Shown here piece after piece: positions 30,598 through 37,667 of a stretch of DNA of 64,000 bases (the stretch's first letter is position 1; each line of letters begins with the position of its first letter). The stretch covers positions 124,001 through 188,000 of the forward strand of contig JAAXGN010000001.1 in NCBI GenBank assembly GCA_012267415.1. The letters run 5' to 3'. A program made the translations under genes and the position numbers. This DNA is from Candidatus Poribacteria bacterium. Its GTDB lineage: Bacteria > Poribacteria > WGA-4E > WGA-3G. The notes beneath the pieces are model-generated. The model saw nothing but the letters and a program-made list of their open reading frames with translations. It ran no database searches and was not told where the DNA came from.

Positions 30598-31374
30598 ATG
30601 GCAAGAGTACCAATTGGTTTAGAGTTATTTTCTGTTCGTAATGAATTAGCAGCGGATGCGCGAAATACAATAAAGGCTGTCGCTGAAATGGGATATGAAG
30701 GTGTAGAATTTGCTGGACCACCACAGCATCCCGCAGAAGAATTAAAGGGTTATCTGGATGAGTTCGGTTTAGTCTGCTGTGGTTGGCACACACCATTCAA
30801 CCTTGTTCAAGAAGACACGCTCGCTGATACTATAGAATTTAACAAAATACTTGAGAATCGTTATGTCATTGTTCCAGGAATTCCAGGGAATTTACGTCAA
30901 TCGCGTGCGGATTGGCTAAAGTTAGCGGATTTTTTCAATGAACTTGCAGACAAACTTGAACCGCACGGCATGGTAACCGGTTATCATAACCATCATGCAG
31001 AATTCTCTCCTCTTGACGGTGAGATTCAGTGGGATACCTTCTTTGGGAATACGAACAAAGGTGTAGTGATGCAATTGGATATGGGTAACGCGCTCAGTGG
31101 AGGTGCGGACCTTGTTGCGATTTTGAAGAAATATCCCGGTCGCGCAGGTACGGTGCATCTAAAACCTTATACCTTATCTGAAGGTGAAACGGATCGACAT
31201 AAGGGTTTTCGTCCAATTATCGGAGAAGATAGCGTGCCGTGGGAAGAGATTTTCAATATCTGTGAAACAACTGGTGACACACAATGGTATATCGTTGAAT
31301 ACGAAAGCGATGCTTATCCGCCATTAGAGGCTGTTGAACGATGTTTGAAAGCACTAAAAGCGATGGGGAAATAG
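30598..31374 (+). CDS. Sugar phosphate isomerase/epimerase (AP endonuclease 2 fold)
   Basis: A 258-residue TIM-barrel protein of the xylose-isomerase-like superfamily. Visible are the strand-1 start IGLELFSVRNEL, the helix-strand unit EMGYEGVEFAG, and the probable metal ligands in GYHNHHAEF, QLDMGNA, TVHLKPY and IVEYESD. Family members isomerise or epimerise sugars, inositols or related keto acids using a divalent metal. AAAGGGAG lies just before the ATG. It is monocistronic here. Together with the Gfo/Idh/MocA genes in this window it suggests carbohydrate or inositol use. Confidence 0.85.
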   Translation: MARVPIGLELFSVRNELAADARNTIKAVAEMGYEGVEFAGPPQHPAEELKGYLDEFGLVCCGWHTPFNLVQEDTLADTIEFNKILENRYVIVPGIPGNLRQSRADWLKLADFFNELADKLEPHGMVTGYHNHHAEFSPLDGEIQWDTFFGNTNKGVVMQLDMGNALSGGADLVAILKKYPGRAGTVHLKPYTLSEGETDRHKGFRPIIGEDSVPWEEIFNICETTGDTQWYIVEYESDAYPPLEAVERCLKALKAMGK

Positions 31375-31536
31375 GCATCATCTGCAGAATAATTTCTAAT
31401 CAATTCAGATAATTTTCATTTTTTTCAGATTATGCACGTTTTCAGCATTCAAATTACGTCTTTAAAAGTCAAGTGATTAAAACAATCGTTGTGTATAACG
31501 ATTTCGTTCAATGTCTGAAAACCAAATGGAGAAAAA

Positions 31537-32841
31537 ATGATTATCAGAATTAAACACACCATTTTAGTTCTATTCCTTCTTTGCAATTTCTCTCTCGCTT
31601 TCGCTGCACCGCCTGAAGTTACACGATTTACATTAAGCAACGGTATTAAGGTTGTCAATCTGTATGTTGAGAATTCCACGGTTGTTGGGATTTTCGGTTA
31701 CTTACCTCTTGGACTTGCTGCGGATGGAAAAGCAAAGACACAGTGGAGCCATCTGATTGAACACTTGACAATCCGAACCTCAGGTCCCATTGATTTCAAA
31801 ACAAGTAACGCGGAAACAATGGCTGACAACATGCGGCTGGATTTCTTGGGTAACACCGATAACTGGATGGATGGCTTGAAACAACACACACAATGGCTTT
31901 CTGGATTGCCGTTTTCGGCAGAAAGTTTAGCCGAGGAGTTGCCGAAAGCCTTATCCGAGATTGATTTTACTGAAAAGAGATTAGCGACACACAAATGGGC
32001 ATTCGCTGCATGGAATCAGGCCATTCGACATGGTGAAACCGCTATATCCATGCGCGGTGATGTTCAATCAGCGCAGTTGCGTGAATTAGAAGAATACCGA
32101 GATCTACACTTGGTTCAGGCTGATCGTGTACTTTTGTGTGTCATCGGTGGCGTTAAGGCGGAAACACTAAAGCCAGCAATGGAAGAACATCTCGGATCTA
32201 TCAACCTAACGGCAAAAAAACTCCCCCCAGCAACGGTAACATCGGAGCTAGTGAAAGACCAAGTTACCTCTTGGGATATCAACGTAACCCACTACCTGGA
32301 AACTTACGCTATACCCAACGTTGATCATAGAGACTACCCAGCACTTTATATGGCAAGTCTGCTTCTACGGATAGCCTGCATGCAAGATACCCAATTGAAG
32401 GAATCGATTGGCTACATTTACTGTGGTATTGATCTTATCACACCTGAACAGATATATTTATATGTCAGTGCTTCGCTCAAACCGGACACAGAAATTGGAA
32501 AGGTTAAGAAGCGGGTTGGAGAGTTGATAAACCAGCTAAAGCAACCTGGGAAGAACGCAATGGTGCCGATGTACGCAATGAATCTTTCAATGCAACTCAG
32601 TTCGCCTCCAGATATAGCGTTAGTAATGCTACAGAAACCGATAGGTATTACAGAAGATATGATGCTTGGGAATATCGGTTTACAGTGGGGTATGCTTGAA
32701 TATCAATATGGTGATACCTTACCCAAACTTGCAGGCGCGCTTGCCGGTGTCACAGCGGATGATGTTGCAGATGTTGTTAAGCGGTATCTAACCGAAGATA
32801 AGCGGATGACGTTGCTTCTCAAGCCTTCTGCGTTGAAGTGA
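31537..32841 (+). CDS. Secreted M16-type zinc peptidase-like protein
   Basis: A 434-residue exported protein. The signal peptide is residues 1-23 (cleavage near AFA-AP). Then comes an M16 (pitrilysin-like) N-domain start, VTRFTLSNGIKVV, and the inverted zinc motif HLIEH at 72-76. Glu141 in ALSEIDF, 65 residues later, fits the third zinc ligand. The second half resembles the non-catalytic M16 domain. It should be a periplasmic or secreted peptidase or processing enzyme. GGAGAAAAA precedes the ATG. The peptidase domain is duplicated in the sigma-factor fusion just downstream, where the same metal-site residues are mutated. Confidence 0.8.
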   Translation: MIIRIKHTILVLFLLCNFSLAFAAPPEVTRFTLSNGIKVVNLYVENSTVVGIFGYLPLGLAADGKAKTQWSHLIEHLTIRTSGPIDFKTSNAETMADNMRLDFLGNTDNWMDGLKQHTQWLSGLPFSAESLAEELPKALSEIDFTEKRLATHKWAFAAWNQAIRHGETAISMRGDVQSAQLRELEEYRDLHLVQADRVLLCVIGGVKAETLKPAMEEHLGSINLTAKKLPPATVTSELVKDQVTSWDINVTHYLETYAIPNVDHRDYPALYMASLLLRIACMQDTQLKESIGYIYCGIDLITPEQIYLYVSASLKPDTEIGKVKKRVGELINQLKQPGKNAMVPMYAMNLSMQLSSPPDIALVMLQKPIGITEDMMLGNIGLQWGMLEYQYGDTLPKLAGALAGVTADDVADVVKRYLTEDKRMTLLLKPSALK

Positions 32842-32897: not shown

Positions 32898-32968
32898 CGT
32901 TTGTAGTAGGGCAATTCATTGCCCGTTCTCCCTTCAGAAACGGGCAATGAATTGCCCTACTACAAACG
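32898..32968. repeat. Long perfect hairpin repeat
   Basis: Arms of 30 identical bases (32898-32927 and 32939-32968, beginning CGTTTGTAGTAGGGCAATTC) enclose an 11-base loop. Each arm itself contains the palindrome GGGCAATTCATTGCCC. The same GGGCAATGAATTGCCCTACTAC unit forms the core of the MITE-like element at 51960-52076. It sits between the peptidase gene and the sigma-factor fusion, so it may act as a terminator or processing site, or be an insertion of two head-to-head repeat units. Confidence 0.8.
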
Positions 32969-33035: not shown

Positions 33036-35228
33036 ATGGAACAGAATGACGTTCAGTTGATTCACAGCATCTTGTCTGGCAACGATAATGCGTTCAGCAC
33101 CCTGGTTCAAAAATACCAAAAGAGTGTTCACGCCCTCGCTTGGCGGAAGATAGGTGATTTTCATTACGCTGAAGAAATTACACAAGACGTCTTCCTGCAG
33201 GCTTATGAGAAACTCTCAACACTCAAGAATCGCAATCAGTTTGCAGGATGGCTGTATGTCATTACAAATAATCTATGCACCGATTGGCTCCGAAAGAAGA
33301 AACCTGTGATGCAACCGCTGGGGGACGCGTCTGTGAAAGCAGTAGATAAACTATCTTATGAGCGTTATATGATGGAACAACGCGAGACAGAAGCATCCGA
33401 GACTCGTCATGAAATCGTCAAGCACCTTCTGAGAAAATTACCAGAGAGCGAACGGACTGTGGTGACACTCTATTATCTCGGTGAGATGTCTACGAAGGAG
33501 ATTAGCAAGTTCATAGGGGTATCAGTGAATACGATTACGAGTCGGCTTCAACGGGCGCGGGAGCGTTTACAAGCCTCGGAAGAACTCTTGATTAACGAAA
33601 CGCTTGGTGGTTTGCCATTGTCTAGTAATTTACTTGAAAACATCATGCGGCAAGTTGCTGACATAGAACCGAGTGCTTCACCGACCGGAAAACCTTTACT
33701 GCCCTGGGCGTCTTTGAGTGCAGCTACGGCTTTGATTATATTGCTGCTTGGTGCAAGTCATCAATATCTTGTCAGATTCCAGCGACCGTATAGTTTTGAG
33801 GTGCAAACCGAGCCTACTATTGAAATAATTGAGGCAGGTGTCGTTCTTAAAACCGACGCAAAACCGGCTGTGCGAAATCAATTGGGACAAGCTGCCACAC
33901 ATGGTAAAAACAGCAGTACCGGTCCACAAGTCTCTGAGGAAGTGTTAGCACCTAATGCGTCAGAGGACTTTCCAAATTTGCTTACTTCTAATACCGCACC
34001 TGAAGTAACACGTTTTACATTAAGCAACGGTATCCGGGTTGTCAATCTCCACGTTGAGGATTCCCCAGATGTCATCATCTTAAGTTATTTACCCCTCGGT
34101 CTCGCGACTGATGGGAAAGCAAGGACATTTTGGAGCCATCTCATTAATCACTTAACAGTGCGAACCATGGGTCCGATTGACTATAAGACAAGCGGTGCAG
34201 AGACATTGGCTGACAATATACGTTTTGATTTCATCGGCAACATGGACAACTGGACGCAAGGTCTGGAACGACATGCTAAATGGCTTTCTGAATTGCCTTT
34301 TTCAGCAGAAAGTCTCGCTGAAGCCCGTCAAAATGCTTTACGTCAGTTTGACTATATTGAAGAGAACTTAACAACCCATAAATTGGCTTACGCTGCCTGG
34401 AACCAGGTCTTTCGACATGGTGTAACCGATATAGCGATGCGAGCTGACATTCAATCGGCGCGACTCAGCGAACTCCAAGCGTATCGTGATCAGCATTTGG
34501 TTCAATCAGATCGTGTTCTTTTGTGCGTCATTGGTAGTATTAACCTTGACACACTGAAAGATACTATGGAGCAACAACTCGGTGTAATCAACTTAACCGA
34601 GAAAACACTCCCCCATCCAACAGTCCGTCCAGAGATAGCGAAAGATCAAAGTGCTACTTGGGACATCAACGTAACTCACTATATGGAAACCTACGCGATA
34701 CCACACTCTAAGGACAAAGACTATCCGGCATTGTATATGGCAAGTGCGCTTCTAAGTTTAGTATTCATGCAGGATACGCAATTGAAAAAACAGATAGGTC
34801 ATATTTTCTGTAACCTTGACTTGATCACCCCTGAACAGGCTTATTTGCAGATCAACGCTTCGCTCAAGCCGGATGCGGATATAGAAGAAGTCAAGCAACG
34901 GATTAGCGTAATGATAAGTAGGTTAATGCAACCAGAAAACAATACGCAGGTCGTCATGGCTGCCCCATTCATCTCCATGCAATTCAGCGCACCCTTGGAT
35001 GTAAAGATGGTAATGCAGCAGCAGCCTATCGGCGTGTCGGAAACTATGGTACTTGGTAACATTGGTGTGCAGTGGGGTATGCGGGAATACCAGCACGGTG
35101 ACACATTATCCCAACTTGCGGGTGCATTTGCGAACATCTCCGCGGCGGATGTGGCTAGTGTTGCTAACCGTTACCTAACTGAAGAACGTCGAATGACGTT
35201 AGTCCTCACGCCACGAGTATCGGAATAG
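33036..35228 (+). CDS. Membrane-anchored ECF sigma factor fused to an inactive M16 peptidase domain
   Basis: A 730-residue fusion. The start at 33036 has GGAGG six bases upstream of GCCTG-ATG. Residues 8-90 are sigma region 2 (YAEEITQDVFLQAYEKL, FAGWLYVITNNLCTDWLR). Residues 125-182 are region 4 (LPESERTVVTLYYLGEMS, TITSRLQRARERL). One membrane helix spans about 222-243. After a linker, residues 322-730 repeat the M16-like protein encoded upstream (VTRFTLSNGIRVV). The zinc motif is HLINH (368-372), with Asn for the catalytic Glu, and the third ligand is Gln437. The domain is therefore a pseudo-peptidase. Inferred role: an extracytoplasmic sensor that holds or releases its own sigma factor. 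I know of no characterised example of this architecture. Confidence 0.85.
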   Translation: MEQNDVQLIHSILSGNDNAFSTLVQKYQKSVHALAWRKIGDFHYAEEITQDVFLQAYEKLSTLKNRNQFAGWLYVITNNLCTDWLRKKKPVMQPLGDASVKAVDKLSYERYMMEQRETEASETRHEIVKHLLRKLPESERTVVTLYYLGEMSTKEISKFIGVSVNTITSRLQRARERLQASEELLINETLGGLPLSSNLLENIMRQVADIEPSASPTGKPLLPWASLSAATALIILLLGASHQYLVRFQRPYSFEVQTEPTIEIIEAGVVLKTDAKPAVRNQLGQAATHGKNSSTGPQVSEEVLAPNASEDFPNLLTSNTAPEVTRFTLSNGIRVVNLHVEDSPDVIILSYLPLGLATDGKARTFWSHLINHLTVRTMGPIDYKTSGAETLADNIRFDFIGNMDNWTQGLERHAKWLSELPFSAESLAEARQNALRQFDYIEENLTTHKLAYAAWNQVFRHGVTDIAMRADIQSARLSELQAYRDQHLVQSDRVLLCVIGSINLDTLKDTMEQQLGVINLTEKTLPHPTVRPEIAKDQSATWDINVTHYMETYAIPHSKDKDYPALYMASALLSLVFMQDTQLKKQIGHIFCNLDLITPEQAYLQINASLKPDADIEEVKQRISVMISRLMQPENNTQVVMAAPFISMQFSAPLDVKMVMQQQPIGVSETMVLGNIGVQWGMREYQHGDTLSQLAGAFANISAADVASVANRYLTEERRMTLVLTPRVSE

Positions 35229-35293: not shown

Positions 35294-36352
35294 TTATGTT
35301 AAATCCGCCAGTTGGGGCATTACCTCATTTTTTAGAAGTTCCATTGAGTTGACCCATTGCTCTTTAGGTTGCCATTCGTGTCCCATTGCAAGCAGCACCC
35401 CGAACCCTCCAACATCTTCATAGAGTTGTCGTAAACGATTAGCAACATGATCAGGACTCCCAACAATCCATAACGTATCCAACAGGACCTCTAAACACTT
35501 CTCAACATCAGGTATATCTGGCTTCATTTTGAATTTTTCCCATCCGAATAGACGAAACCAGTATTCACGAAAATCGCGACCGAGTGTCCCTTCAATTGCT
35601 TCTTTACGTGCTTGTTCATCGGTATCTGCGACATATACTTCACGAGCAATACGCCATGTAGATCGTGATGGAGAGAGTCCGGTTTTCTCAGCCCCTTCCT
35701 CAACAGCATCCCAATGCGTTTTTATAACGTGAACAGGTGCAAGATTGATACTCATTGGGATCCAACCACGTTCTCCAGCAAAAATGAGTGTATCGGATTT
35801 TGTAGACGAACCTGCCAATGCAATCGGTGGATGTGGTTTCTGGTAGGGTTTCATGTGAATACTCACGATGTCTGGATGTCCATCGGGGATTTTAAACTCC
35901 CAAGTATCACCCTTATAGTGGCCAGGTTCAGGATCCGTCCAAATCTTGAGAACCGCATCAATTCCTTCGCGAGTTGCCTTACGTCTATCTGATGAAGCCA
36001 TGAACATTTCTGCATCACTCGGTGTAGAACTTGAGCCAACACCCCAGTGAAAACGTCCGTGCGCCAGATGGTCTAATTGTGCGATACGGTGTGCAACAAC
36101 TGCTGGATTATGTATCGGCATGCATGTTATACCCGTTCCGAAGATGATGTTCTCTGTCATCGCCAGTGCTTTGGCAATAAATAGGTCTGGTGAAGGAATA
36201 TTTTCCCATGTAAACGTAAAATGCTCACCGACATAAGCCTCCTTGAAACCTAATCTATCCAATGTCACCATCTGTTCAAGGTCGTCATCAAGTGTTTTGG
36301 TCGTGTCGCTACCCGGTGGATGTAAAGGCATTGTAAAGAATCCGAGTTTCAT
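35294..36352 (-). CDS. LLM-class flavin-dependent oxidoreductase
   Basis: A 352-residue luciferase-like TIM-barrel monooxygenase. It has MKLGFFTMPLHPPG at the N-terminus, GEHF at about 42-45, the strand-loop GTGITCMPIHNP and HGRFHWGVGSSS. The family uses reduced flavin, FMN or F420, to oxidise diverse substrates; the substrate is not readable. GGAG lies 6 bases before the ATG. It is isolated on the minus strand between the sigma fusion and the LivK-like gene. Confidence 0.85.
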   Translation of the reverse strand: MKLGFFTMPLHPPGSDTTKTLDDDLEQMVTLDRLGFKEAYVGEHFTFTWENIPSPDLFIAKALAMTENIIFGTGITCMPIHNPAVVAHRIAQLDHLAHGRFHWGVGSSSTPSDAEMFMASSDRRKATREGIDAVLKIWTDPEPGHYKGDTWEFKIPDGHPDIVSIHMKPYQKPHPPIALAGSSTKSDTLIFAGERGWIPMSINLAPVHVIKTHWDAVEEGAEKTGLSPSRSTWRIAREVYVADTDEQARKEAIEGTLGRDFREYWFRLFGWEKFKMKPDIPDVEKCLEVLLDTLWIVGSPDHVANRLRQLYEDVGGFGVLLAMGHEWQPKEQWVNSMELLKNEVMPQLADLT

Positions 36353-36476: not shown

Positions 36477-37667
36477 ATGTACAAAAAATGTTCTGTTTTC
36501 ACCTCGGTTGTGTTGCTGGCAGTTTTGAGTTTCTGTATATTAGGATGTGAACGTATTGATCCTATGATCCCCACCGACACTACACCTGAGGAAGATGCTG
36601 TTTTAAAGATCGGTGTTATTCAACCAGCATATAGTTATACAACTTTTAGCCGAGGTGCAGAAACTGCTCGTGTACAGATAAATGAAAATGGTGGTGTACT
36701 TGGTAGGCAAGTTGCGTTTATCAGTAGAAATAACCAACCTATAGAGAATGAAAACCCAACTGTAGAAGCAAGTAGAAATGCTGCAAATGAATTAATTGAG
36801 ATGGAAAACGTATTTGCACTGCTGGGTCCTGTGCGTTCTACGATGGCAGTAGAAGTAGGTCCAATTGCACAACAAGCACAAAGGTTGATGTTGCCTGGTT
36901 CCAGTGGATCAAATGTGCCATCTGTGGGTGATTATGTCTTTCTCATCACCGTACCGAACCCATTTCAAGGAAAGGTGATGGCAAGTTTTGCAATGAATCC
37001 TGACGAACTCAATGCTAAAACTGCTGCGACAATTTTTGAGGAGGGAGATAATTACTCCATTGATCTCGTTCAAGCATTTGAAGCAGCATTTAGGGAAAAT
37101 GACGGTCAAATCGTTCATAGTGGTTCTTATACTGCAGGACAAACCACTATCGCTGATCTTCTTGATGCCATTCAAACTGTTTCTCCAGACGTAATCTTCT
37201 GTCCGGGGCATCAACCACAAGTGCCACTATTGATAAGTGAAGCACGTCAAGCTGGTATCACAGCAACTTTTCTGGGTGGGAGTGCTTGGGATGACAGAGA
37301 ACGATTCCTTGGTGTATTAGACGATAGCACTGTGTTGGATGGTAGTTACTATCCGACTAATTTTTCTGTTGCGACACAGGACGCGGATGTGCAAGAATTC
37401 GTGAGTGGATACATGGAACTTTACGGTAGTCCACCGGATGGTATCGCTGCGTCGGGATACGATGCGATGCGACTCTTGGCACGTGCAATAGAGGCGGCGG
37501 GTTCGCTTGACCGCGTTGCGGTTCGCGATGCATTCGCTGCTGTCAATGGTTACAAAGGGGCGACAACCATTTCGCATTACGATGAGAACCGTCATCCCGT
37601 CAAAAGCCTTACAATTCAAGTAATCCGAAACGGACAGGTTGAACACTACAAGGTAGTGGAACCGTAA
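36477..37667 (+). CDS. ABC-transporter substrate-binding lipoprotein, LivK-like
   Basis: A 396-residue periplasmic-binding-protein fold (Peripla_BP_6 class). A lipoprotein signal runs to ILGC (Cys24). LKIGVIQPAYSY, the AALGxVRS-like segment ALLGPVRSTMAVE, GYDAMRLLARAIEAAG and a C-terminal QVIRNGQVEHY are typical of branched-chain amino-acid or amide binding proteins. No permease or ATPase gene is adjacent, so it would depend on components elsewhere or act as a sensor. A TTGACA at 36434 could be a -35 box, but the -10 is weak. The next gene begins 21 bases downstream. Confidence 0.8.
   Translation: MYKKCSVFTSVVLLAVLSFCILGCERIDPMIPTDTTPEEDAVLKIGVIQPAYSYTTFSRGAETARVQINENGGVLGRQVAFISRNNQPIENENPTVEASRNAANELIEMENVFALLGPVRSTMAVEVGPIAQQAQRLMLPGSSGSNVPSVGDYVFLITVPNPFQGKVMASFAMNPDELNAKTAATIFEEGDNYSIDLVQAFEAAFRENDGQIVHSGSYTAGQTTIADLLDAIQTVSPDVIFCPGHQPQVPLLISEARQAGITATFLGGSAWDDRERFLGVLDDSTVLDGSYYPTNFSVATQDADVQEFVSGYMELYGSPPDGIAASGYDAMRLLARAIEAAGSLDRVAVRDAFAAVNGYKGATTISHYDENRHPVKSLTIQVIRNGQVEHYKVVEP

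Follow-up and report, generated by a model that had tools for sequence, protein, structure and literature searches.

What use could a bacterial sigma factor make of a peptidase domain that has lost its catalytic Glu? The question is raised by a gene at positions 33036-35228 (+) of a 64,000-nucleotide (nt) stretch from Candidatus Poribacteria bacterium (GenBank assembly GCA_012267415.1, contig JAAXGN010000001.1, positions 124,001 to 188,000 of the forward strand); this whole stretch is called the window below. An initial annotation, made from the letters alone, had read the gene as an extracytoplasmic function (ECF) sigma factor tethered through a membrane helix to an inactive M16 peptidase domain, and had suggested that this domain senses a peptide or a metal. 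Its account of the gene is borne out by comparison with other Poribacteria genomes: a single frame encodes an ECF sigma factor, a membrane helix and an M16 domain, and the fusion is real and conserved. We refer to the sigma part as the head, to the C-terminal domain as the ear, and to the head with the segments connecting it to the ear as the chassis.

The frame runs uninterrupted from the ATG at 33036, which sits behind a good ribosome-binding site, to the stop at 35228, and encodes 730 residues; open reading frame (ORF) reading, Pfam matches and homologues place the domains in the order claimed. The head is of the ECF type, with sigma region 2 at residues (aa) 23-89 (33102..33302, +; Sigma70_r2, PF04542, E 3.6e-14) and sigma region 4 at aa 126-178 (33411..33572, +; Sigma70_r4_2, PF08281, E 8.3e-16). 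PF07638 was matched as well, the NCBIfam sigma70-ECF model TIGR02937 scored 96.8 bits (cut-off 42.9), and sigma region 3 was absent from the Pfam matches of the head. The extension past region 4, 550 residues long, begins with a conserved juxtamembrane segment, predicted to be cytoplasmic and common to helix-bearing paralogues (aa 182-221; 33579..33698, +). It is followed by the membrane helix (aa about 222-243; 33699..33764, +) and by a conserved collar, predicted to be extracytoplasmic and similar across paralogues whatever their ear (aa 244-275, ..RFQRPYSFE..SEPTIEII..; 33765..33860, +). The helix corresponds to the one hydrophobic segment of the protein (aa about 221-239, mean Kyte-Doolittle hydropathy 1.98), and AlphaFold2 placed a helix at aa 224-247, in a low-confidence part of its model. 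A Pfam scan gave zero matches in aa 179-318; of two paralogous juxtamembrane segments scanned, one had no match and the other a weak one to DUF7040 (E 0.18, below cut-off). The ear (aa 321-725; 33996..35210, +) is 63% identical to the peptidase encoded by the adjoining gene. Its C-terminal half contains a Peptidase_M16_C match (aa 478-630; PF05193, 31.3 bits, cut-off 23), and aa 322-635 matched the solved M16 protease 5euf in a profile search, which gives it an M16 fold by profile.

Searches with the M16 part as query matched 38 of 84 Poribacteria genomes. Counting the window's, 27 genomes carry 28 fusions with unbroken frames, one of which is cut by a contig end; there are also one broken fusion and 30 stand-alone copies. 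Homologues of the same domain order, which the initial annotation had proposed seeking, are thus plentiful, and the 27 further unbroken fusions in 26 other assemblies (one 5'-cut by its contig) led us to reject a sequencing or assembly artefact joining two genes. Two outcomes that would have spoken against the fusion, sigma and peptidase homologues that are always separate and fused relatives with HxxEH restored, were sought and not found. All 21 named related loci are from metagenome-assembled genomes of Poribacteria, a phylum best known from marine sponges; the estimated contamination of the window's own genome is 5.3%. At four loci (L119-L122, in genomes G053, G056, G060 and G076) the M16 locus is reduced to short C-terminal fragments beside conserved flanking genes.

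The initial annotation overlooked an active-site-bearing paralogue next door, a candidate ECF promoter before that paralogue, and a large family of paralogues with the same chassis. The neighbour (31537..32841, +; 434 aa) is a stand-alone M16B-like peptidase (PF05193, E 2.1e-8; profile match to 5euf) with HLIEH at aa 72-76 and Glu141 as third ligand. It is probably secreted: its first residues, MIIRIKHTILVLFLLCNFSLAFAA (31537..31608, +), form a predicted signal peptide as judged by eye and hydropathy, and a hydrophobic N-terminus with a small-residue end site occurs in the other stand-alone copies, except the contig-cut L101. At 23 of the 25 judgeable fusion loci the stand-alone gene and the fused gene share a strand; the remaining three of the 28 loci end at contig edges. 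Because 22 of these 23 pairs, each on a single contig, are spaced by 24-194 nt, the two genes probably form one operon. Five stand-alone peptidases (L087, L092, L094, L097, L098) have about 250 additional C-terminal residues, for which the only Pfam match was a sub-threshold LolA-like one in L098 (E 0.003).

Alignment with the stand-alone paralogue confirmed the substitutions reported at the active site of the ear. The zinc motif reads HLINH (aa 368-372; 34137..34151, +), with Asn371 where the paralogue has the Glu of HxxEH, and Gln437 (34344..34346, +) takes the place of the third ligand Glu. The HxxEH Glu is present in 0/28 fused copies, where it has given way to Asn (19), Met (7), Ser (1) or Thr (1); all 30 stand-alone copies retain it, as HLIEH, together with the distal Glu. 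These counts include the 5'-cut copies L057 (fused) and L101 (stand-alone) and exclude L091 (G058, a fused frame split into two ORFs), the fragments in G053, G056, G060 and G076, and the distant homologue L118 (G010, HMVEH, 21% identity). The domain can accordingly be called inactive, as claimed, with the qualification that it is the loss of the Glu that is conserved and not the particular replacements: Asn371 occurs in 19 of 28 copies, and position 437 is Gln in 20, Glu in 7 and Gly in 1. Among the fused copies, 18 retain the first His, 16 the second and 7 the distal Glu; some sites now read NLIMR, QLVNR or HLVSS. Since no fused domain keeps all three ligands (0/28), metal sensing is unlikely, and we reject that part of the earlier suggestion.

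Past the first 25 positions, only two columns combine conservation of 95% or more among stand-alone copies with retention by 20% or less of the fused ones, namely Tyr43 and the HxxEH Glu. Ear codons gave dN/dS values of 0.08-0.24 in all eight pairs tested, indicating purifying selection, and with the uniform loss of the Glu this makes the dead active site look like a selected state. In a tree of the whole domain the fused copies form two groups, requiring two changes between the fused and stand-alone states and suggesting two independent inactivations. We set that history aside because a single fused clade is not firmly rejected (approximately unbiased (AU) test, p 0.051) and because the N-terminal third, where the active site lies, has a single split between the fused and the stand-alone copies (Shimodaira-Hasegawa-like approximate likelihood-ratio test (SH-aLRT) 97; 82 without the motif columns). 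In the middle and last thirds the two kinds are mixed, with three changes each. The simplest account would be a single inactivation, followed by gene conversion between the neighbours that reworked the C-terminal part.

The sigma part of the fusion recurs in dozens of ORFs of the window's genome. The 41 ORFs examined, which include the window's, comprise 29 with a helix in the same place (called at a hydropathy peak > 1.6), 11 without it there, and one with the helix in a frame without sigma region 2. Head, juxtamembrane segment, helix and collar (..QYLxRFQxPYSxxAxSExxxEI..) align among the helix-bearing paralogues, and the sequences diverge after the collar. Within the 28 M16 fusions the helix has a hydropathy peak of 1.86-2.41 in 27 (the cut copy L057 gave a slice that missed the segment), and collar residues R247, F248, Q249, P251, Y252 and T261 are invariant. 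Pfam was used to scan 29 proteins besides the window's; 18 were complete chassis proteins including the helix, and the ears of these are WD40 domains (7, one weak), sortilin/BNR propellers (7), a leucine-rich repeat (LRR) with a GHL15 glycosidase-like domain (1), a C-type lectin (1) or without known domain (2). In a search of 11 genomes with a linker-helix-collar query, two single-contig family genomes had 19 and 14 matches, one other-family genome had 2 and the remaining 8 had none; a 320-residue query gave 6 to 29 matches in each of 9 family genomes (E up to 1e-90). Chassis copies in three counted family genomes number 29, 19 and 14.

Heads and ears do not always travel together. In a quick tree of sigma parts the M16-type heads form one group (27/28, SH-aLRT 95). 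This group also takes in the sigma fragment left by the broken fusion and, from G049, a head with an LRR-GHL15 ear. In G036, a WD40 domain (PF00400, 30.7 bits, cut-off 27) forms the ear on a head that is 82% identical to the window's and is encoded beside the same triosephosphate isomerase (TIM)-barrel gene; the M16-part search of that genome was without match. Conversely, G083 carries the M16 ear on a different head, with 49% identity to the window's over residues 1-308. On this comparative evidence, ears are exchanged on a common chassis. Some of the other ears also resemble a neighbour. The lectin ear at L043 is 34% identical over 311 aa to a protein with a predicted signal peptide encoded at the same locus, the ear at L047 is 31% identical over 103 aa to a same-locus protein, and several WD40 cases were seen, in a comparison that has no chance baseline and is weak for WD40 ears.

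Two kinds of variant were seen in the course of this survey. Five genes (L033:4200-6758, two at L050 and two at L055) encode sigma heads with WD40 or BNR propellers and no hydrophobic helix, and are therefore apparently cytoplasmic variants; the heads at L055 are only distantly related. Four others (L041:13635-15374, L044:18142-18825, L041:8479-8754 and L033:6745-7668, all +) have no sigma domain but retain one or more of juxtamembrane segment, helix and collar, and are possibly receptors without output, or decaying copies.

ECF promoters commonly carry AAC and CGTC motifs. An element of this type, TGCACGTTTT-N8-AAATTACGTC (31433..31460, +), is a conserved block in the alignment of upstream regions, and its end lies 76 nt ahead of the start codon of the stand-alone gene. 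The 5.46-Mb genome has no other perfect match to it and none to the backward control; shuffling predicts 0.01 matches for the window. The element thus precedes the upstream gene of the pair; a promoter directly before the fused gene was considered and rejected, the best match there having five mismatches. Six other places in the genome match with 2-3 mismatches, one of them directly upstream of a chassis paralogue. Close variants of the form TGCACCTTTTT..AAATACGTC were noted at C68:174794, C92:10998, C92:25162 and C118:17879, and a fifth, at C68:158535, ends about 24 nt ahead of the called start of a chassis paralogue.

Among 58 family genomes, 34 hold the element in perfect or one-mismatch form, and the backward control found nothing in any of them all. 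Perfect copies occur in 28 of the 58, solely at the M16 locus, at its remnants or, in G036, before the chassis gene at the same place. The element (0-2 mismatches) was found upstream in 27 of the 35 loci fetched and in the window; of the seven remaining loci, four are at or near a contig edge and three are without it (L100 and L117, which have no fusion, and L114, which has another head). Perfect copies were present in 24/29 genomes with an M16-type head vs 4/29 without one (Fisher p 2e-7, which is only indicative, the genomes being related and the table counted by hand, with G031 entered as head-bearing from a contig-cut frame that lies below the head-search threshold). Of the other five head-bearing genomes, three have a two-mismatch element at the locus and two end at a contig edge. 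We infer that the sigma factor of the window recognizes the element at 31433-31460.

A relation to the head is also suggested where the ear is the same and the head is not. The M16 ear of G083, on its different head, lies downstream of TGCACCAGTTT..TCGCGTC, also given as TGCACCAG..CGCGTC; elements of this type precede the L036 paralogues of the window's genome, among them L036_1008, whose head is the nearest to that of G083 among those compared. In the window's genome, TGCA-N19-21-CGTC occurs within 350 nt upstream of 18 of 39 head-bearing genes, with or without helix, as compared with a mean of 0.33 and a maximum of 3 in 500 shuffles and none for the backward pattern; this contrast is somewhat flattering because the pattern was derived from those same upstream regions. 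The stricter TGCAMCC-N16-SCGTC was found at nine places genome-wide vs one for its control, and seven of the nine precede head-bearing genes. The promoter element appears to follow the sigma head, and not the ear, as a tendency, and the position of sigma genes behind TGCA..CGTC-type elements suggests autoregulation.

Several loci have further genes next to the element. A membrane protein of 187-210 aa with small-residue repeats (MSKTF/MKKTF/MEKTF..) is encoded directly after it, before the M16 gene(s) or their remnant, at L086, L087, L089, L096, L099, L102, L104, L105, L108, L120 and L121; the one copy scanned had no convincing Pfam match. At L097, L105 and L108 a second perfect copy stands ahead of a predicted membrane protein of 83-100 aa, a candidate further regulon member.

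The reading towards which we lean, as somewhat probable, is that the fusion is receptor and sigma factor in one protein: its pseudopeptidase would sense either the adjoining peptidase or the substrate of that enzyme, and the protein would turn on the operon that encodes it. The cytoplasmic head would be held, through juxtamembrane segment, helix and collar, to the pseudo-M16 ear outside, which most likely binds that substrate or the peptidase. A change in the ear would pass across the membrane to the head, which might then be freed by regulated proteolysis or be active while tethered. The head would transcribe its own operon, that is, the secreted peptidase and the receptor, from 31433-31460, giving more of both. 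Head release by intramembrane proteolysis is plausible because the window's genome encodes an M50 (site-2-type) protease and because there is a precedent in IutY, an ECF factor for which proteolytic release has been demonstrated (PMC8999054). The ligand and the activation step are put forward more tentatively than the architecture, the loss of the catalytic residue, the gene arrangement, the head-associated promoter element and the exchange of ears, which are visible in the sequences.

We also consider a family-wide extension of this reading, plausible although a little doubtful, in which a chassis with exchangeable ears forms a class of receptors, the ears tend to be degenerate copies of an adjoining secreted protein (a dead beside a live peptidase, or a lectin-domain ear beside a lectin-domain protein), and each head reads its own variant of TGCA-N20-CGTC before its own operon. 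If this is true, pseudoenzyme receptors derived from enzymes would be wired directly to RNA polymerase, and the class would be analogous to chemoreceptors and one-component systems, with a sigma factor as output and one chassis for many sensors. Proposed promoters for many of the regulators in this largely uncultured phylum also come out of it. The M16 case offers a clean test of the conversion of a dead enzyme into a sensor, because the live enzyme adjoins it and a candidate promoter is in hand.

A number of observations weigh against the receptor reading. The element persists in five genomes without an M16-type head (perfect in G053, G060, G068 and G076, with one mismatch in G033), in G053, G060 and G076 at the decayed M16 locus, so that another sigma factor may read it, or these copies may be remnants. 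Besides the G033 locus, one-mismatch copies occur at 14 other places in 8 genomes. Directly upstream of 21 of the 39 head-bearing genes, the fusion included, there is no TGCA..CGTC pattern. The correlation of head distance with promoter distance across 15 genes is modest (rho 0.31, a value reached in 95 of 5000 permutations), and among nearest heads some have elements that are quite different. The fusion occurs without the peptidase in two single-contig genomes (G082 and G083). In G080, G030, G033 and G068 the peptidase is present and it is the fusion that is missing. Both AlphaFold2 models are poor (mean pLDDT (predicted local distance difference test) about 48), with the confident parts mainly in the C-terminal M16 half.

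The main rival, which we judge unlikely but the strongest of the three, takes the ear as the non-catalytic (alpha-like) and the neighbour as the catalytic (beta-like) subunit of an M16B heterodimer, so that the sigma factor reads the assembly or occupancy of a clam-shell enzyme. Adjacent genes with and without HxxEH, for subunits of about 400 residues, are described for bacterial M16B pairs (SPH2681/2682, TTHA1264/1265; PMC12731061, PMC11266112). The pair here resembles these, and mitochondrial processing peptidase, in this respect, and differs in that its inactive copy is fused to a membrane-tethered sigma factor. The co-orientation of the two genes agrees with a heterodimer, as does the domain history, in which the active-site third splits the sets once and the rest of the domain mixes them, the pattern that gene conversion between the two would leave. 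Foldseek matches of the AlphaFold2 model of the peptidase are M16 proteins, heterodimer subunits among them, at TM-scores (template modelling scores) near 0.3. On the other hand, the genomes that keep one gene without the other, just listed, weaken the case for such a partnership. The inactive M16B half usually supplies an arginine-tyrosine (R/Y) pair in its C-terminal domain. At the positions that we take, from the M16 consensus, to be those of the pair, a Lys is conserved for the Arg and the Tyr is not conserved, in fused and stand-alone sets alike; the pair is thus conserved in neither set, which counts against the heterodimer, and we dropped it as evidence for one.

That the ear is an anchor only, its identity hardly mattering, and that the signal is sensed by the juxtamembrane segment and collar or by a separate protease, seems improbable to us. 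It would fit the occurrence of juxtamembrane segment, helix and collar in 29 proteins of the window's genome with unrelated ears, and the swapping of ears on the same head in G036 and G049. Against it stand the purifying selection on the M16 ear with its uniformly lost catalytic Glu, and the presence of an active-site-bearing paralogue beside it at 23 of the 25 judgeable loci. That the protein is cytoplasmic and its hydrophobic segment no membrane anchor, as may hold for WD40 ECF factors of Planctomycetes, is very improbable, since the five propeller proteins without the segment and the two Arg just outside the helix, which would suit it, are set against the hydropathy peaks of 29 of the 41 ORFs and of 27 of the 28 fused copies and against the predicted signal peptide of the ear's stand-alone paralogue.

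How far is the receptor reading new? The initial annotation had spoken of a new signalling design, which overstates the case, as ECF factors with membrane-crossing C-terminal extensions are described: IutY, ECF48, ECF52 and ECF53, with SCO4117 (ECF52) holding a periplasmic carbohydrate-binding domain in its extension (PMC8999054, section 3.5; PMC8103513). The fusion resembles IutY and SCO4117, as portrayed there, in having an ECF head, a C-terminal extension with a helix and no separate anti-sigma factor among the scanned neighbours. It differs from this set of factors in that no zinc-finger or anti-sigma domain was recognized by Pfam between head and helix, that the ear is a dead peptidase paralogous to its neighbour, and that about 30 copies with unrelated ears occur in one genome. 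Planctomycetes ECF57 factors, with several paralogues, are described as having a long WD40 domain after the head (PMC8567305; PMC8999054), whereas 29 of the 41 Poribacteria ORFs have a hydrophobic helix there and non-WD40 ears occur.

Two other comparisons concern the origin of the sensor and its link to sigma. As in our reading of the ear, BlaR1 and MecR1 have a sensor domain from the enzyme family whose gene they control; they differ in fold, in being acylation-based and in acting through a protease and a repressor. In SigI/RsgI systems the sensor is carried on a separate anti-sigma factor, whereas in Poribacteria it is on the sigma factor itself. Those of Clostridium thermocellum, which are biomass sensors, are described as several paralogous transmembrane regulators for different substrates, each linked to a sigma factor, with release by RseP (PMC12203970). 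A 2014 paper on Poribacteria reported that WD40 and LRR proteins are abundant and that some of them have membrane helices; the word sigma is absent from its main text (PMC3909097). Among the matches listed from the open-licence literature, no description of a sigma-M16 fusion or of tethered Poribacteria sigma factors was found; what looks new is the M16 ear, the chassis with its exchangeable ears, and the link of the promoter to the head.

Pfam scans of the genes flanking the pair identified a xylose-isomerase-like TIM barrel (30598-31374), a luciferase-like monooxygenase (35294-36352, -) and a periplasmic binding protein (36477-37667). The initial annotation had stated that there is no separate anti-sigma factor, and none was found among the four neighbour proteins scanned, the rest of the genome not having been searched for one. 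Between the two M16 genes of the window lies a perfect 30-nt inverted repeat with an 11-nt loop (32898..32968), for which no mechanistic role is claimed; as the intergenic gap is only 24-66 nt in 17 of the 23 pairs, the repeat looks like an inserted element.

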